Assembly: GCA_001717545.1 (NCBI GenBank)
Contig: CP017039.1
Span: 434,001-498,000, forward strand
Length of the DNA stretch: 64,000 nucleotides
Direction: 5' to 3'
Source of the DNA: Anaerolineaceae bacterium oral taxon 439
GTDB lineage: Bacteria > Chloroflexota > Anaerolineae > Anaerolineales > Anaerolineaceae
Both the position numbers and the translations under genes were made by a program. Numbering within the stretch: position 1 is the first letter of the stretch; each line of letters begins with the position of its first letter. The notes under the pieces are model-generated. The model saw only the letters and a program-made list of their open reading frames with translations, ran no database searches and was not told the DNA's origin. Shown one piece after another: positions 51,235 to 59,488 of this stretch.

Positions 51235-51808
51235 CTTCTTCTTTGGTCGGACGCCGCCGGACGCGCTTGAAGAGGCGCTCGATCGACGGAATGAAGAGCA
51301 TGACCAATCCGATCGCCGTGACGCATTCGCCGACGACGACGCCGTCGGATTGCAGCGGGCCGAAGAACGGGACGCCGGGGAGCGGATGCGACCCGATGCC
51401 GAAGACGTCGGCCATGCCGGTGAAGAGCGAGATAACGAATCCGGTCCAGACGAACCGGATCCCGAAGCTGGAAGTCAGCGATTCAGGATAACGGCGGAAA
51501 AAACTGCGGTTACAGTAATATCCGCCGCCGCACATCAGACCCAGCCCGAGGATGATCACCGCGGTTTGGACGAAGCCGATGACCGGGCTCCGGTCCAGTC
51601 CGAAAAAGGACGGCTTCGCCCCGAGGATCAGGATTAAATAACCGATCACGGTCATCCAGACCCCGATTCGGAACAGGGTGGAATGATGCGGAAGCTCGAC
51701 AGCGCGGATCGCTTCCTGCGGATCGTAGGGTTCGGGCCGGTCAAGGACATAAGAGGCTTTCTTTTTCTGTTCCGCGGACGCGCTTTCCGCCGCTCTTTCG
51801 CTGTTCAT
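51197..51808 (-). CDS. Hypothetical membrane protein with four helices
   Basis: 203 residues. A charged N-terminus (ASAEQKKKASYVLDRP) precedes four membrane helices (about 47-66, 78-97, 115-135 and 160-178) and a basic C-terminal tail (FKRVRRRPTKEEVSEAERL). No family was recognised. Its ATG overlaps the stop of the dipeptidase gene by four bases, so it is the last gene of a minus-strand operon. Confidence 0.7.
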   Translation of the reverse strand: MNSERAAESASAEQKKKASYVLDRPEPYDPQEAIRAVELPHHSTLFRIGVWMTVIGYLILILGAKPSFFGLDRSPVIGFVQTAVIILGLGLMCGGGYYCNRSFFRRYPESLTSSFGIRFVWTGFVISLFTGMADVFGIGSHPLPGVPFFGPLQSDGVVVGECVTAIGLVMLFIPSIERLFKRVRRRPTKEEVSEAERLKDLKS

Positions 51809-52881
51809 TGAAAAGCTCCTTTTTCCAGGATTCGCTGCCAGTTGGCATGGCAGATTTTCGCGATATCGCTCGGTTCATATCCGCGTTTCGCTAAGACCGC
51901 GCGGATCTTCCCCAGCCCGCCGATATTGTTCATTTCATAAGGAATCGACGGATAGCCGAATCCGCCGTCGAGATCGGTCCCGATCGCGGCGTGATCCGCG
52001 CTGCCGGCCAGTTGGCAAATATGGTCGATATGATCGGCGAGGGTATCGAGGGTCACCAGGCGCCGGTCGTCGCCGGTTCTCCATTCGCTGTTCAGAAAGA
52101 AATTGCAGGGGACGACGCCGATAACGCCGCCCCGTTCGATCATCAACCGGATCGTATCGTCATGCAGCAGGCGCTGGTTCCGGGGGCGACGGAGGAGCGA
52201 GATGCAGTTACAGTGCGAAGCGATGACGACGCCGTCGTAGCGTTCGATCGCGATTTCGGCGCTTTTTTTATTCATATGCGAGACGTCGAGGATCAGGCCG
52301 CGGCCGCTCAGCGCGTTCAGGAGGTCGTATCCCGCCGCGGTAAAGCCGTCCGACGGGTCGTTCATTCCCCCGCCGCACCAGCGTCCCCCCGCCCAGACCG
52401 GACCGACGATTCGCAGTCCCGCTTCAATATATTCGTCGAGATCGGAAAACGAGCGGAGCCCTTCCGTCCCTTCCATCAGCGGGACCAATCCGATCGGCGC
52501 GGGCTCTCCCTGATCCAGCGCGCTGACGAGGGCGTCGTATTCGGCTCTTGTTCGGAGGAGCCTGAACTTTCCGTCGGGATCGTCGTTCCAGCGACGGTAA
52601 AAATCGAGCTGCGCCAGCGCGGCGCGGTGGAACTCGTCGCCGTTTCGATATTGGACCGCGGGGATCGGATTGTCCGGCCCGTCCGCGATTTTTTCAAGGA
52701 AAACTGTCGGGAAGATAATCCCGATTCCTGCTTCGCGGTATTCGGGGTATCCGAGGGTGATCCGGTTCGTCGGATCGTCGGGCTCGGCCGCGCGCGCGGC
52801 TGCAACCGGACGCTTGTAGTCGCGACAATGCAAAATCGCCTCGCAGGCAATATCCTGATGTCCGTCAATTATCCACGTCAT
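51805..52881 (-). CDS. Membrane dipeptidase family (M19) peptidase
   Basis: 358 residues. Zinc-dependent renal-dipeptidase-like fold: IDGHQDIACE supplies the first His and Asp, LMEGTEGL the bridging Glu, DVSHMN and ASHCNC the later His ligands, and GTDLDGGFGYP the Asp. These enzymes cleave dipeptides, often with a D-residue, and could recycle wall peptides. No signal peptide. A minus-strand TATAAT stands six bases before the ATG, so in addition to read-through from upstream it may have its own leaderless transcript. It overlaps the next gene by four bases. Confidence 0.88.
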   Translation of the reverse strand: MTWIIDGHQDIACEAILHCRDYKRPVAAARAAEPDDPTNRITLGYPEYREAGIGIIFPTVFLEKIADGPDNPIPAVQYRNGDEFHRAALAQLDFYRRWNDDPDGKFRLLRTRAEYDALVSALDQGEPAPIGLVPLMEGTEGLRSFSDLDEYIEAGLRIVGPVWAGGRWCGGGMNDPSDGFTAAGYDLLNALSGRGLILDVSHMNKKSAEIAIERYDGVVIASHCNCISLLRRPRNQRLLHDDTIRLMIERGGVIGVVPCNFFLNSEWRTGDDRRLVTLDTLADHIDHICQLAGSADHAAIGTDLDGGFGYPSIPYEMNNIGGLGKIRAVLAKRGYEPSDIAKICHANWQRILEKGAFQ

Positions 52882-54003: not shown

Positions 54004-54207
54004 TCAACCTGCGAAAGCGTTTCGCCCTGATATTTTCGGCACTCTTTTTTCGTTTTTGGGGTCATAATCGACGCCCGTTGCGGATAGACCCAGAACCTGT
54101 CGATATAACAATTTTTCGAAGGAGCGGATGTCGCGGATTCGGTCTGAAAGTTCCCCGTTCCAGTCATTTTCCATCGATCTGTTCCTCATGTCATGCGCCT
54201 TATTCAT
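54004..54207 (-). pseudogene. Possible remnant of a RhuM-family gene
   Basis: A short frame encodes ELSDRIRDIRSFEKLLYRQV and then TGVDYDPK, which resembles the C-terminal part of RhuM-type proteins (DIRASEKxxYQK...DYDP). It breaks at A-rich codons: in the next frame the sequence continues as TPKTKKECRKYQGETLSQVE up to the nitroreductase start. No intact start or ribosome-binding site. RhuM-like genes are often on mobile islands, so this may mark an old insertion. The remainder of 53913-54345 is non-coding. Confidence 0.35.
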
Positions 54208-54345
54208 TGTGTCCCATACTTATCAAACGCCGTTCTCTATCTGGAGCTTACGCCGGCGAACTTCCTAATTAAATTATACGCGATCGAAGGGCGGTTCCCC
54301 GGCCCCGATTCCGGCGACGCGGGGAATTTCGCGCCGGCCGGCTGG

Positions 54346-54373
54346 TATAATGATTCCAGGTATGGATGTATGA
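54346..54373 (+). promoter_or_regulatory. Promoter -10 and three-codon minigene before the beta-lactamase-fold gene
   Basis: TATAAT (54346-54351), preceded by CTGG, is followed ten bases later by ATG-GAT-GTA-TGA (54362-54373), whose stop overlaps the real start codon at 54370 as ATGA. It closely mirrors the arrangement at 31285-31313, including the shared GGTATGGA sequence. Confidence 0.45.
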
Positions 54374-55851
54374 ATCGTAGAAATTCACTGTCGATTTTAC
54401 GCTGGGTGGCGTTGGGGCTGATCTTTATTTCGGTCCTGATTCTGGGCCGGCAGCTGATGCTCTACAGCCGGATGCGCGCGCTGCTCCCGCCGGGACTGAC
54501 GATCGGCGGCGTTCCGGTCGGCGGACTGAACGGGACGGAAGCGGGCGAACGGCTTGTCCGCGCGTATGGGATCCCGATCGAGCTGATTTACGGCGGATCG
54601 GTTATTCAGGTCCGTCCGTCCGCGGTCGGGTTCAGCCTGAATATCGAGACGATGCTGGCGGCGGCCGATTTACAGCGGATCACCCGCAATTTCTGGCTGG
54701 GGTTCATGGATTACATGTGGAATAATCTCCCCGTTCCGCAGCCGGTCCCGCTGTCCGCGACGATCTCGCAGGAACGGCTCCGCGACTACTTATCCAACGA
54801 AATCACCCCGCGTTACGATATCCCGGCGCGCGAACCGATCCCTGATCCGGAAACGAACCGCTTTACCGCGGGCGAGCCGGGGACATCGCTCGATATTGAA
54901 CGTTCAATTCGGCTTATCGAGGAAGCGCTCCGGTCTCCGACGGACCGTTCGGTTATCCTCCCGTATAACCGGACCTCCCCGACGCAGGCGTCGGATCAGA
55001 ACCTTCAGTATATCGTTAGGCAGATCATTGACGATCATGGTTTCGAAGGCGTCGCCGAGTTTTATATTCTCGACCTGGATACGCGGAAGGAAATTTCGTT
55101 CGCGGTTTCGGGCGGTGAACCGATCGCGCCGGATATTTCGTTTACCGCCGCGTCGACGATTAAGATCCCGATCATGGTTTACCTGTTCCTGAATTATGAT
55201 CAGCCGCTTCCGGCGGCGCTGAATCAGGCCCTGAAGCAGATGATTGAAGTGTCCGAAAATGGACCGGCCGATTCGATCCTGCAATCGATCGGCGGGGATT
55301 TAGCTCCGGTCGCGTTTACCGACGATTTCCTGAAGCAGCTCGGGTTGAAAAATACCTTTTTAGGCGGATATTTTTATATCGGCGCGCCGTTACTCGCGCA
55401 GTATGAAACGCCGGCGAACCAGCGTACCGATATCGATACCAATCCGGACCGTTATAATCAGACGACGCCGACTGAAATTTCGATGATTATCGACGATATT
55501 TATCAGTGCGCGGCGTTCGACGGCGGGACGTTTCGGGCGGTTTTTGGCGAAGCGATCCAGCAGTCTGAATGTGTAAAGATGCTGGAGGAGCTGTCGACGA
55601 ATAAAACGGCGGTCCTTCTCGAAGCCGGGATCCCGGAAACGACGCGCGTTGCGCATAAACACGGCTGGATACTGGAGACCGACGGACTGATCCATGGGAT
55701 TTCCGACGCGGGGATCGTTTATTCGCCGAGATCGACGTATATTTTTACCATGTTTTATTGGAGCGAAGCGCAGTTAGCTTTCGATCCGACGAATATTCTG
55801 GCGGCGGATATCTCCGGCGCAGTGTATCAGTTTTTCAACGCGGCGGAGTAG
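54370..55851 (+). CDS. Membrane-anchored class A beta-lactamase-fold serine hydrolase
   Basis: 493 residues starting at ATG 54370; the upstream frame would cross the promoter. One N-terminal membrane helix (about 11-30) is followed by a YoaR/VanW-like peptidoglycan-associated domain (LTIGGVPVGGLNGTEAGERL). The C-terminal half has the class A serine hydrolase motifs Ser262-Thr-Ile-Lys265, SEN (295-297) and KHG (430-432), plus TTPTEISMII. The active-site set is complete. Linked domains suggest a wall-directed transpeptidase-like or carboxypeptidase-like enzyme rather than a secreted antibiotic-hydrolysing enzyme; this is inferred. Confidence 0.8.
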   Translation: MNRRNSLSILRWVALGLIFISVLILGRQLMLYSRMRALLPPGLTIGGVPVGGLNGTEAGERLVRAYGIPIELIYGGSVIQVRPSAVGFSLNIETMLAAADLQRITRNFWLGFMDYMWNNLPVPQPVPLSATISQERLRDYLSNEITPRYDIPAREPIPDPETNRFTAGEPGTSLDIERSIRLIEEALRSPTDRSVILPYNRTSPTQASDQNLQYIVRQIIDDHGFEGVAEFYILDLDTRKEISFAVSGGEPIAPDISFTAASTIKIPIMVYLFLNYDQPLPAALNQALKQMIEVSENGPADSILQSIGGDLAPVAFTDDFLKQLGLKNTFLGGYFYIGAPLLAQYETPANQRTDIDTNPDRYNQTTPTEISMIIDDIYQCAAFDGGTFRAVFGEAIQQSECVKMLEELSTNKTAVLLEAGIPETTRVAHKHGWILETDGLIHGISDAGIVYSPRSTYIFTMFYWSEAQLAFDPTNILAADISGAVYQFFNAAE

Positions 55852-55898: not shown

Positions 55899-58800
55899 AT
55901 GAGCGAGAAGAATAGATTCGAAGCCGATGGGATGGAACGGCGGCTCGACGGATTGGATCGTCCGGTATTCCGGGCATTTCCGGCTTTTTCCTGGGAGAAG
56001 CTGCTGATCGCGTTGATCGTGATTGTCGCGGTGATCAGCCGGTTCGCGATCTTGGGCGAACGCGTCATGTCGCATGACGAAGTGAATCATGTCGTCCCGG
56101 CATACACGCTGTCAACCGGCGGGGGCTATGCTCACGATCCGGTAACGCACGGGCCGTTCCAGTTCCACATGTTAGCGCTGTCGTACTTCCTTTTGGGTGA
56201 CAATGATTTCGCGGCGCGCGTCCCTGCGGCGCTGTTCTCCGTCGCCGCGGTCCTGGTCGTTTTATTCGGCTACCGTCGCTATCTCGGACGGACCGGCGCG
56301 CTGATTGGCGGGCTGATGATGACGATTTCGCCGCTGATCCTGTTTTACGGCCGGTACACGCGAAACGAAGCGTTTATTGAATTGTTTATGGTTCTGACGC
56401 TTTGGACGACGCTTCGCTACCTGGAGAAGCGGGACGAAAAATCGCTCCTGATTCTGTCGGCGGTGACGGCGCTACAGTTCGTCACGAAGGAAGTCTCGTA
56501 TATTTACACGGCGCAGCTGTTGATTTTCTGTGGAATTTTGTTCCTTGGGGATGTCTGGAGGCTGCGCTGGGATTCCGACGGTGAGAAGCTGCGGAAGATG
56601 GGGATGATCGCGCTGGCGGCGTTTTTCGCGCTTCTCGGCGCGGCGCTTCCGAAGCTCCTGGGCGGAGAGGGCGATCCGACGACGGCGATAAAACTGGCGT
56701 CGCTGGGGGTCGCTGCGTTCGGCGGATTGATCCTGCTTTTCGTGATCGTTTCGACGGTCCGGAAATTCAGCTGGAAACCGTTCCGCGACATGCCGTCGTT
56801 TGACCTGATCGTCTTTGTTATGGCGCTGATCCTGCCGCAGTTAACCGCGATGCCGGTATCGCTGGCGGGATGGGACCCGCTGGATTATTCGGCGAACGGG
56901 ATGCTGAAGACCGGCGCTGTGATGACGGTTTTATTCGCTCTGTCAATCGCGGTCGGGGTCTGGTGGAACCGGCGCGTCTTTTTACGCGGCGCGATGATCT
57001 TTTACCTGATTTATCTTGTCTTTTATACGACGATGTTTTCGAACGGGCAGGGTTTCTTTACCGGTGTTGTCGGCTCGTTAGGTTACTGGCTTTCGCAGCA
57101 GGAAGTCAAGCGCGGCGGGCAACCGCTTTATTACTACGCGGCCGTGATTCTTCCGATTTATGAATTCGCGGCGCTGTTTGGGACGATACTGGCGATCCGG
57201 TTCGGCTTGAAGCGCCGAAGTTTTTCCGGTCGGCCCGGCGCGGAGCGCGTTTCAGAAACGATCCGCAAGGCAGGGATCTCCGCGCCCGAAGAAACGGCCG
57301 GCGACGATTCGCGGGAGAGCTTTTTCTCGTTGGTTGAGATTTCCGGAGAGGAGGCGCGGGCGGCGGAGGTCGAGGCGGTCGAGATCGATCCTTCCGACTA
57401 CGGCGCTCTCGAATCGGCGCTGATCGGCGAAATCGATTCGCTGGAGCCGGCGGAGATCCCGGTCCCTCCGGCGACGGTTCCCGCGCTGGCGCTGTTCCTG
57501 TATTGGGGGCTGACGGCGCTGATCGCGTATTCGATCGCTGGGGAAAGGATGCCCTGGCTGGGAGTTCATATTGCGCTGCCGCTGGTTTTATCCGGTGCGT
57601 GGGGTTTCGGGTATCTTTTTGAAACGCTTGATTGGAAAAAGCTGATGAGCGCGGAGGGCGGCGCTGCGGCGGCGCTGACGATTGTCGCGCTGTACGCGCT
57701 TGGCGGCGTTCTTTCGCCGTTCGGGACCGGGCTGGCGCCGTTTGCGTCGACCGATCTGGCCGGGCTTAAAGCGACGGGGCTGTTTGCCTGTTCGGCGGTC
57801 GCGCTTGTCATTTCAGGGTTTTACCTGGTACGGACGCTGCGCAGGATGGGCGGGAAGTCGGTCTCCGGGTTTTACGCGCTGTTCATCGGAATTGCGCTCC
57901 TCGTTCTCCAGGCGCGAACTGCGTTTCAATCCTCGTTCGTCAACTATGATCAGGCGAACGAGTACCTCGTGTACGCGCATTCGAGCGCGGCGCCGAAAGT
58001 CGTTTTACGCGAAATCGAGGAAATCGCCGCACGGACCGGCGTCGGGAAGGCAATTCGTGTCGCGTACGATAACGACGCGCGTTATCCTTACTGGTGGTAT
58101 TTCCGCGATTATACGCAGAAGCTCGATTTTAACGAAGCCGCGACGCGGACGCTTCGCGACTACGATATTATTATCGCCAACACGGCGAAAGACGCGAAGC
58201 TCCTCCCGATCGTCGGCGACGCTTATTATCGATCCGAGTATATGCGGCTGTGGTGGCCGAATCAGGATTATTTCAGGGTAACGCCGGGCGGCGTCTGGAA
58301 CGCGATCGTCAATCCGCAGATGCGCCGGGCGATTCTCGATATCTGGCTGGATCGGGATTTCGGGCGGTACGCGAAGCTCGTCGGTTCCGGCTCTATGTCG
58401 CTGGAGACCTGGGAGCCGTCGGCGAAAATGGTCGTCTATATGAAGAAGGACCTGCTGCGGCGGATGTGGAAGTATGGCGACGCGGCGGCGACGGTCGACG
58501 AAGGCGGAACCGCGTCGTTCCCTGACGAGAAATTTACCCCGCTGAACCCGGTTTTTTCGTTCGGCGAGGCGGGAACCGAGCCTGGAAAGCTGAACCGGCC
58601 GCGGAACCTGGCAATCGCGCCGAACGGGGACGTGTACGTCATGGATACGGATAACGAACGGGTCGACGTTTTTAACGGCGAGGGTGTCTTCCGATTCAGC
58701 TTTGCGAACGAGGATCACGGCGGATTTAATCAGGCCTGGGGAATCGCGATCGACGAAGACGGTTCGGTTTTCATCGCCGATACCTGGAACCACCGCATGC

Positions 58801-59405
58801 TGAAATTCAGCGCGGCCGGCGACTACGAGCTGGAATGGCTCGCGAACGATCCAACCGGCGCGACGATCAGTTTCTACGGACCGCGTGGGGTTGCGATCGA
58901 CGGCCGGGGGCGCGTATATGTTACCGATACCGGGAATAAGCAGGTCATGATTTACGACCGCGAGGGAAAGTTCTTATCGAAATTCGGGAGCGTTGGCCTT
59001 GGTCCGGGCGAGTTCGACGAACCGGTCGGGATCGCGGTTTTCGCGGATCAATATCTGGCGGTCGCCGATACCTGGAACCAGCGGGTTCAGGTCTTCGATA
59101 TCAGCGGCGAAACGGTCCTGCCGGCGCCCGTGTACGCGTTCGAGGTCTTCGCCTGGTATTCGCAGTCGATGGACAACAAGCCGTATCTTACCTTTACGCC
59201 GAAAGGGAACCTGCTTTTCAGCGACCCGGAGGCCGGGCTGGTCTGGGAGTACAGTGTCAGCGGGGAGCTTATCCGATCGTTTAACGGCGCGGGCGGCGGA
59301 ATCGACATGCTGTCGATGCCGGTGGGCCTGGCGACGGATCGAGATGGGGCGGTCTGGCTCGTCGACGCGCTGGGAAACCGGGTGAATCGGTTTATCCTGC
59401 CGTAA
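55899..59405 (+). CDS. TIGR03663-type membrane glycosyltransferase fused to an NHL beta-propeller
   Basis: 1168 residues. The N-terminal half is a polytopic GT-C-type protein (about 13 helices) of the PMT/ArnT-like TIGR03663 (Agl23-associated) group, with catalytic acids in RVMSHDEVNHV (Asp60, Glu61) and TRNEAFIELFMVL. A hydrophilic loop (about 430-520) interrupts the helices. After a segment reading YAHSSAAPKVV and WWYFRDYTQ comes a C-terminal NHL propeller (about 885-1168): repeats such as LNRPRNLAIAPNGDVYVMDT, WGIAIDEDGSVFIADTWNHR and YGPRGVAIDGRGRVYVTDTG. It probably transfers a polyprenyl-linked sugar to an exported acceptor recognised by the propeller. Confidence 0.85.
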   Translation: MSEKNRFEADGMERRLDGLDRPVFRAFPAFSWEKLLIALIVIVAVISRFAILGERVMSHDEVNHVVPAYTLSTGGGYAHDPVTHGPFQFHMLALSYFLLGDNDFAARVPAALFSVAAVLVVLFGYRRYLGRTGALIGGLMMTISPLILFYGRYTRNEAFIELFMVLTLWTTLRYLEKRDEKSLLILSAVTALQFVTKEVSYIYTAQLLIFCGILFLGDVWRLRWDSDGEKLRKMGMIALAAFFALLGAALPKLLGGEGDPTTAIKLASLGVAAFGGLILLFVIVSTVRKFSWKPFRDMPSFDLIVFVMALILPQLTAMPVSLAGWDPLDYSANGMLKTGAVMTVLFALSIAVGVWWNRRVFLRGAMIFYLIYLVFYTTMFSNGQGFFTGVVGSLGYWLSQQEVKRGGQPLYYYAAVILPIYEFAALFGTILAIRFGLKRRSFSGRPGAERVSETIRKAGISAPEETAGDDSRESFFSLVEISGEEARAAEVEAVEIDPSDYGALESALIGEIDSLEPAEIPVPPATVPALALFLYWGLTALIAYSIAGERMPWLGVHIALPLVLSGAWGFGYLFETLDWKKLMSAEGGAAAALTIVALYALGGVLSPFGTGLAPFASTDLAGLKATGLFACSAVALVISGFYLVRTLRRMGGKSVSGFYALFIGIALLVLQARTAFQSSFVNYDQANEYLVYAHSSAAPKVVLREIEEIAARTGVGKAIRVAYDNDARYPYWWYFRDYTQKLDFNEAATRTLRDYDIIIANTAKDAKLLPIVGDAYYRSEYMRLWWPNQDYFRVTPGGVWNAIVNPQMRRAILDIWLDRDFGRYAKLVGSGSMSLETWEPSAKMVVYMKKDLLRRMWKYGDAAATVDEGGTASFPDEKFTPLNPVFSFGEAGTEPGKLNRPRNLAIAPNGDVYVMDTDNERVDVFNGEGVFRFSFANEDHGGFNQAWGIAIDEDGSVFIADTWNHRMLKFSAAGDYELEWLANDPTGATISFYGPRGVAIDGRGRVYVTDTGNKQVMIYDREGKFLSKFGSVGLGPGEFDEPVGIAVFADQYLAVADTWNQRVQVFDISGETVLPAPVYAFEVFAWYSQSMDNKPYLTFTPKGNLLFSDPEAGLVWEYSVSGELIRSFNGAGGGIDMLSMPVGLATDRDGAVWLVDALGNRVNRFILP

Positions 59406-59436: not shown

Positions 59437-59461
59437 AAATAGAGCGGGTCGCGTCCGCTCT
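59437..59461 (-). terminator. Minus-strand intrinsic terminator
   Basis: AGAGCGG and CCGCTCT (59441-59447 and 59455-59461) form a seven-base stem; on the minus strand it is followed by seven T. It would end transcription coming from the tRNA-Arg(GCG) side. Confidence 0.65.
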
Positions 59462-59488
59462 ATAAAAAGTTTAACGTAAACTTTTTAT
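59462..59488. repeat. Perfect AT-rich hairpin
   Basis: ATAAAAAGTTTA and TAAACTTTTTAT (59462-59473 and 59477-59488) flank ACG. It adjoins the terminator hairpin. Confidence 0.65.

Follow-up and report, generated by a model that had tools for sequence, protein, structure and literature searches.

What would a membrane protein of glycosyltransferase (GT) type do with an NHL propeller at its C terminus? The question is raised by a gene of Anaerolineaceae bacterium oral taxon 439 (Chloroflexota), found in a 64,000-nucleotide stretch of contig CP017039.1 (positions 434,001 to 498,000), which we call the window. The gene (Table 1) encodes a GT-C membrane half followed by an alpha/beta domain, after which a weak linker leads to an NHL propeller of six blades; its product belongs to the Agl23 family, TIGR03663. 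The chief interest is that TIGR03663 and DUF2298/TIGR03662 are nearly inseparable in 201 Chloroflexota genomes, yet little understood; among the literature examined, the biochemistry for TIGR03663 comes to a single report of flippase activity, in an archaeon. With its invariant residues, the fused propeller offers a way to search for the missing acceptor or partner. The reading that we favor, with a probability of about one half, is that the protein is a polyprenyl-phosphate-sugar-dependent GT-C transferase on the outer face, whose propeller docks an acceptor or partner and which shares a pathway with DUF2298.

A sequence-only reading of the window had described a glycosyltransferase fused to an NHL propeller at 55899-59405, and this was borne out by an intact open reading frame (ORF), by family matches, and by relatives. 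The 1168-aa protein scores 227 bits against the NCBIfam TIGR03663 cut-off of 126.25 (E 4.5e-67) and exceeds the gathering scores of the Pfam PMT models (PF02366/PF13231), namely PMT_2 (residues 84-242, E 2e-19, 70.8 bits vs. 26.1) and PMT (29.8 vs. 22.7 bits); NHL is matched in four stretches (E 1.1e-30, 104.5 bits vs. a cut-off of 20), and no Pfam match to the MIR domain was obtained at E up to 1. The propeller, put earlier at about 280 residues, measures 288, and the “GT-C” assignment stood, but that half is larger than described, with about 17 helices plus a 180-residue domain. The Agl23/TIGR03663 identity of the protein and the DUF2298 partner go beyond that reading. Within its own genome (2.95 Mb, one contig) the fusion protein matches itself alone, and its best named relative is from Flexilinea flocculi, also of the Anaerolineaceae. 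Homologs of full length occur in cultivated members of the family, among them F. flocculi (L031, 1162 aa) and Thermanaerothrix daxensis (L048, 1170 aa). The GT and NHL parts share one ORF in 80 of 80 named relative loci (35-54% identity over the best segment), in one of which, L100, the ORF breaks within the propeller. Thus, the intact ORF, the sole self-match, and the fused relatives rule out a chance fusion, a local frameshift, or an assembly artifact.

The fusion is widespread in the Chloroflexota and not peculiar to one genome. Whole-protein searches gave matches in 251 of 301 genomes of the phylum, of which the weak ones may come from different NHL or GT proteins, and TIGR03663 matches 168 of the 201 Chloroflexota genomes, 129 of them above cut-off. 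We fetched 60 regions by TIGR03663 or whole-protein matches (an author-chosen set, partly favoring tandem matches) and detected genes with our own profiles and thresholds (100 bits for the GT part). A TIGR03663-type gene above threshold was present in 59 regions from 39 family bins, and fused forms occurred in 25 of these bins (19 fused only, six with both forms), the other 14 being propeller-less only. One region (L214), whose ORF is cut by the region edge (gt 50, mid 102, nhl 269 bits), was excluded, and its bin, f35, falls outside the 39. As to whether relatives keep the two parts in separate genes, none of the 27 propeller-less-only regions (276 kb) holds a separate ORF with a match to the propeller profile, a search of regions and not of whole genomes. 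The propeller-less-only forms show that in some lineages the core enzyme can do without a propeller. In the six both-form bins the two forms stand in tandem, the propeller being present on one copy and absent from the other, which suggests paired subunits or split acceptors; tandem pairs with the propeller on one copy only stand in L141, L142, L143, L144, L146, L147, L207, and L208. A rapidly built tree comprised 72 sequences (57 fused and 15 propeller-less; 83 before near-copies were dropped). On it the propeller state needs five changes, and supported branches force at least three under an arbitrary root. In contrast, the invariant residues that the propellers have in common favor one propeller lineage, a single gain being one candidate history. 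Plasmid searches with two TIGR03663-type proteins gave no match, and three plasmid records hold no TIGR03663. The domains and other parts are already known; what is phylum-wide is their architecture, and no paper on a GT-C/NHL fusion was found in the open-licence PMC literature.

The link to DUF2298 is the second result on which our reading draws. At a line of E up to 1e-20, which we set, 128 genomes hold both families, two hold TIGR03663 only, three DUF2298 only, and 68 neither (Fisher p 3e-47, without correction for kinship). All five exceptions hold weaker matches to the other family; below the line lie TIGR03663 near 1e-16 in G108 and G148 and DUF2298 at 5.7e-16 in G053. DUF2298 was detected from ten seeds (in L153, L154, and L155 the same places later matched PF10060) and in 41 of the 60 regions is found no more than 2.5 kb from the TIGR03663-type gene, on the same strand. 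Occurrence of TIGR03662/DUF2298 in the same genomes is presumably part of the TIGR03663 definition, and NCBI's original family note is said to describe the pairing already. Among the control genomes, those of Haloferax volcanii and Methanosarcina acetivorans also give matches to both families, with DUF2298 above cut-off in both of these archaea and TIGR03663 above cut-off in two of the four controls that it matches.

Glycan genes accompany DUF2298 in several settings. Both DUF2298 genes of oral taxon 439 match TIGR03662 above the NCBIfam cut-off, and they stand in tandem in a run at C1:1487001-1498325 (L170:2-11326), behind genes of LPG_synthase_TM, GDP-mannose-dehydratase, GT4, methyltransferase, and PMT_2-like types, the PMT_2-like protein being just below its cut-off; this operon-like run is likely an extracytoplasmic glycan locus. 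On plasmid pNP95 of Pseudobutyrivibrio xylanivorans (Bacillota), which has no TIGR03663, a DUF2298 gene (L218:7569-9824) lies among polysaccharide genes, namely O-antigen-ligase, GT2, and epimerase genes. For Chloroflexi bacterium 44-23, DUF2298 is tabulated beside PMT2 genes (PMC8756737). In several of our regions DUF2298 and the fused gene are separated by a third GT-C gene. GT-C-like genes in this place were seen at L152:6801-8579 (110 bits to TIGR03663, below cut-off), L153:8330-10258, L154:10410-12185, and L155:10629-12380. One 1487-aa ORF (L154:14536-18999) has a PMT_2 match and DUF2298 together, and many listed DUF2298 matches sit in open frames of 1400-2770 aa.

What the membrane half might do is suggested by its predicted fold. 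An AlphaFold2 model of the whole protein (79 sequences) reached a mean predicted local distance difference test score (pLDDT) of 89.5 and a predicted template modeling score (pTM) of 0.79. A fold search with it returned propeller matches only, and residues 1-866 were remodeled alone (pLDDT 90.8, pTM 0.89). By this model the membrane half has a GT-C fold. The best match is ArnT (5f15; Z 28.8, root-mean-square deviation [rmsd] 3.6 over 440, 13% identity in the aligned part), tied by Z with the STT3 of human OST-A (8pn9 chain A; Z 28.6, rmsd 7.3 over 448), with further matches to ALG12 (Z 26.1, rmsd 3.3 over 431), AglB (3waj; Z 26.0, rmsd 5.2 over 420), and Pmt4 (9i5l; Z 25.0, rmsd 3.8 over 372). 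When PDB sequences were searched with a profile of the membrane half, the single match was at chance level (E 0.71). ArnT is an undecaprenyl-P-linked aminoarabinose transferase whose acceptor is lipid A; the fusion protein is larger and has a propeller. With the PMT O-mannosyltransferases (Pmt1-Pmt2, Pmt4; GT39) it shares the PMT and PMT_2 matches and the Pmt4 fold, but it differs in having a propeller and in lacking a match to MIR, a feature of eukaryotic PMTs.

We delimited 17 membrane helices by visual reading of the DSSP output and, taking the N terminus as inner, placed successive loops on alternate sides. The assigned sidedness agrees with the positive-inside rule because lysine plus arginine per residue is enriched in inner loops (0.24, or 0.16 including the variable loop 440-528) relative to outer loops (0.06). 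The majority of the well-conserved loops, together with the alpha/beta domain and the propeller, would then lie on the outer face, which supports, as a prediction, the earlier placement of the propeller outside the membrane. The mean identity of the outer loops is 0.64 for HDE...HGP, 0.81 for RYxRN, 0.70 for TTxFTN...RGQP, and 0.77 for AGEKMPWL; poorly conserved outer loops are 255-261 (0.10) and 610-619 (0.26). In an alignment of 83 GT halves that includes four propeller-less forms, W397, R405, Q408, P409, E549, W553, Y692, W733, Y734, R736, and Y791 are invariant. The N-terminal set D60, E61, H84, G85, P86, R107 (also at least 90% conserved), R152, and R155 is conserved as in the TIGR03663 definition, which calls for an invariant DE, an HGP, and arginines toward the N terminus. 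By position and by analogy to other GT-C enzymes, whose catalytic acid is expected in the first outer loop, the conserved D60 and E61 are candidates for this role.

The propeller model has 24 strands in residues 886-1166, forming six four-stranded blades, and its NHL fold matches include the domains of TRIM2/3, Thin, and PknD (TRIM3 7qrw: Z 37.7, rmsd 2.1 over 267; PknD 1rwi: Z 30.0, rmsd 2.5 over 248). At E up to 0.01 it is the sole NHL-repeat match in its genome. Mean identity to the query is 0.41, about level with the alpha/beta domain at 0.44. The invariant propeller sites in Table 1 were scored over 74 propellers, which represent part of the collected loci with identical copies removed and are not independent events; the two gapped ones are uncovered there. 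Because GPR and EP fall at NHL-repeat starts, part of their conservation may reflect fold and not function, and the NKPY of the protein's own family is not retained across the phylum. The models do not support a fixed contact between the halves, or a fixed geometry of propeller and active site, because the linker 861-880 is poorly predicted and hardly conserved.

From the family assignment, model folds, fusion, motif conservation, and DUF2298 link computed here, we infer a mechanism in which the membrane half would bind a polyprenyl-phosphate-linked sugar and transfer this sugar at the outer surface of the cell membrane, D60 and E61 being the likely catalytic acids. The WYxR-containing alpha/beta domain would help to form the acceptor site, the propeller, tethered outside via the low-confidence linker, would dock an acceptor or partner protein near the active site, and DUF2298 (TIGR03662) would act in the same pathway. 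An outer-face transferase of lipid-linked sugars is favored by the fold, by the acids conserved on that face, and by the glycan genes near DUF2298. For the propeller, docking is the best reading: its predicted place is outside, it is conserved and loosely tethered, and some lineages lack it. The propeller may help the enzyme to find what gets modified; the protein O-glycosylation or glycan sensing with acceptor recognition suggested from the letters would be conjectural. Should the propeller bind protein, it would open to testing a route of glycosylation that has been little studied in this major environmental phylum.

Several observations weigh against this reading. The 14 family bins with propeller-less forms only manage without the fusion; 19 of 60 regions have no neighboring DUF2298, and the DUF2298 genes of oral taxon 439 lie about 1 Mb from the fusion gene. 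The linker lends no support to a fixed arrangement of propeller and active site. Conservation is not limited to the outer face because the predicted inner loop YRRYLG (125-130) has a mean identity of 0.72, the remaining inner loops having 0.13-0.27. No substrate, acceptor, or catalysis for any bacterial family member was found in the literature examined, and the family member with direct biochemistry, Agl23 of Haloarcula hispanica (HhAgl23), is reported to act as a flippase (PMC11182771).

The protein could then be a flippase, or a flippase-associated protein, for polyprenyl-linked sugars, with the propeller recruiting the transferase that uses the flipped lipid. Purified HhAgl23 is reported to have moved M5GN2-PP-phytanol (lipid-linked Man5GlcNAc2) across liposomes, and HhAgl23 to have suppressed a yeast rft1 deletion (PMC11182771). 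HhAgl23 is of the same family by the curated TIGR03663 cut-off, although the fusion protein is bacterial and propeller-bearing; NCBIfam names the family “flippase activity-associated,” and DUF2298 could be the transferase. On the other hand, the modeled fold is that of GT-C transferases, and the conserved acids are on the predicted outer face, as catalysis would lead one to expect. We consider a flippase role doubtful, but a serious rival because HhAgl23 is reported to flip lipid-linked oligosaccharides, and transferase and flippase roles can both hold.

Unlikely, in our view, is en bloc transfer of a lipid-linked glycan to protein in the manner of an oligosaccharyltransferase, with the fusion protein replacing STT3 and the propeller binding polypeptide. 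With STT3, AglB, and PglB it has in common the modeled fold, including the tie by Z noted above, and, past the last helix, a domain that holds an invariant aromatic motif, WYxR, reminiscent of the WWDYG of STT3. The motif differs, however, reading WWYFRDY at residues 732-738; PF02516 (STT3) reaches 13.8 bits, below its 24.5-bit gathering score; and rmsd to the listed STT3, PglB, and AglB chains is 5.1-7.5 vs. 3.6-3.8 for ArnT. We retain this alternative because the genome of oral taxon 439, the one genome searched for STT3, has none above cut-off, and at E up to 1 the fusion protein is the sole one there to match STT3. A related and similarly improbable proposal is that STT3-lacking Chloroflexota glycosylate surface proteins via a two-part machine of DUF2298 and an Agl23-type protein, with the propeller reading the protein acceptor. 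PknD of Mycobacterium tuberculosis is a membrane protein with a sensor NHL propeller outside a kinase (its PDB title says extracellular domain), and the fusion protein shares that fold but is of sugar-transferase type. Least probable is that the propeller likewise senses envelope state and regulates the transferase, for although the PknD match and the low-confidence linker are consistent with this, no regulatory gene was found among the ten recurrent neighbors scanned, and tandem pairs with the propeller on one copy are equally consistent with docking.

Table 1. Features of the fusion gene and the gene upstream, in window coordinates
Feature	Position	Strand	Basis
TIGR03663 (Agl23-family) GT-C protein with NHL propeller	55899..59405	+	1168 aa, single uninterrupted ORF
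Membrane GT-C half, residues 20-681	55956..57941	+	Model; ArnT, STT3, ALG12, Pmt4 fold matches
H59-D60-E61, first outer loop, candidate catalytic acids	56073..56081	+	Each at least 90% conserved, 83 rows
H84-G85-P86 motif, first outer loop	56148..56156	+	At least 90% conserved, 83 rows
RYxRNE motif, residues 152-157, second outer loop	56352..56369	+	R152, R155 at least 90% conserved, 83 rows
TTxFTN...RGxQP outer loop, residues 377-409	57027..57125	+	W397, R405, Q408, P409 invariant, 83 rows
Variable loop 440-528, predicted cytoplasmic	57216..57482	+	Mean identity 0.13, low pLDDT
AGExMPWL motif, residues 547-554, outer loop	57537..57560	+	E549, W553 invariant, 83 rows
Alpha/beta domain, residues 682-860 (~180), predicted outside	57942..58478	+	DSSP of model; mean identity 0.44
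W733-Y734-F-R736 motif, alpha/beta domain	58095..58106	+	W733, Y734, R736 invariant in 83 rows, including four propeller-less
Weakly conserved linker, residues 861-880	58479..58538	+	859-873 pLDDT <50; mean identity 0.13
Six-bladed NHL propeller, residues 881-1168, 288 aa	58539..59402	+	NHL matches; TRIM3, PknD fold matches
G994-P995-R996, blade start	58878..58886	+	Identical in 72/74 propellers, other 2 gapped
E1041, start of next blade	59019..59021	+	Identical in 72/74, other 2 gapped
W1086, propeller tryptophan	59154..59156	+	Identical in 72/74, other 2 gapped
Class A beta-lactamase-like serine hydrolase, hydrophobic N-terminal stretch	54193..55851	+	Beta-lactamase2 E 7e-17

The fusion gene does follow a serine hydrolase gene, as had been noted from the letters; the latter ends 47 bases before the fusion-gene ATG on the same strand. 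Of the 80 loci that extend 2 kb or more upstream, 18 have an upstream homolog on the same strand; overall, a homolog lies upstream in 22 other loci and is the next gene in 17 (counts of loci and not of genomes, L002 and L159 being from the same genome). The hydrolase was rejected as a partner in the system, its upstream homolog being found in a minority of loci. A Peptidase M19 gene (membrane dipeptidase family) also lies near the fusion gene, at 51805-52881 on the minus strand (E 7.5e-50). At 59439-59463, 33 bases past the gene end, is an inverted repeat of nine pairs that is terminator-like on the minus strand; terminator-like sites in the scan that listed it were no commoner than in shuffled sequences.

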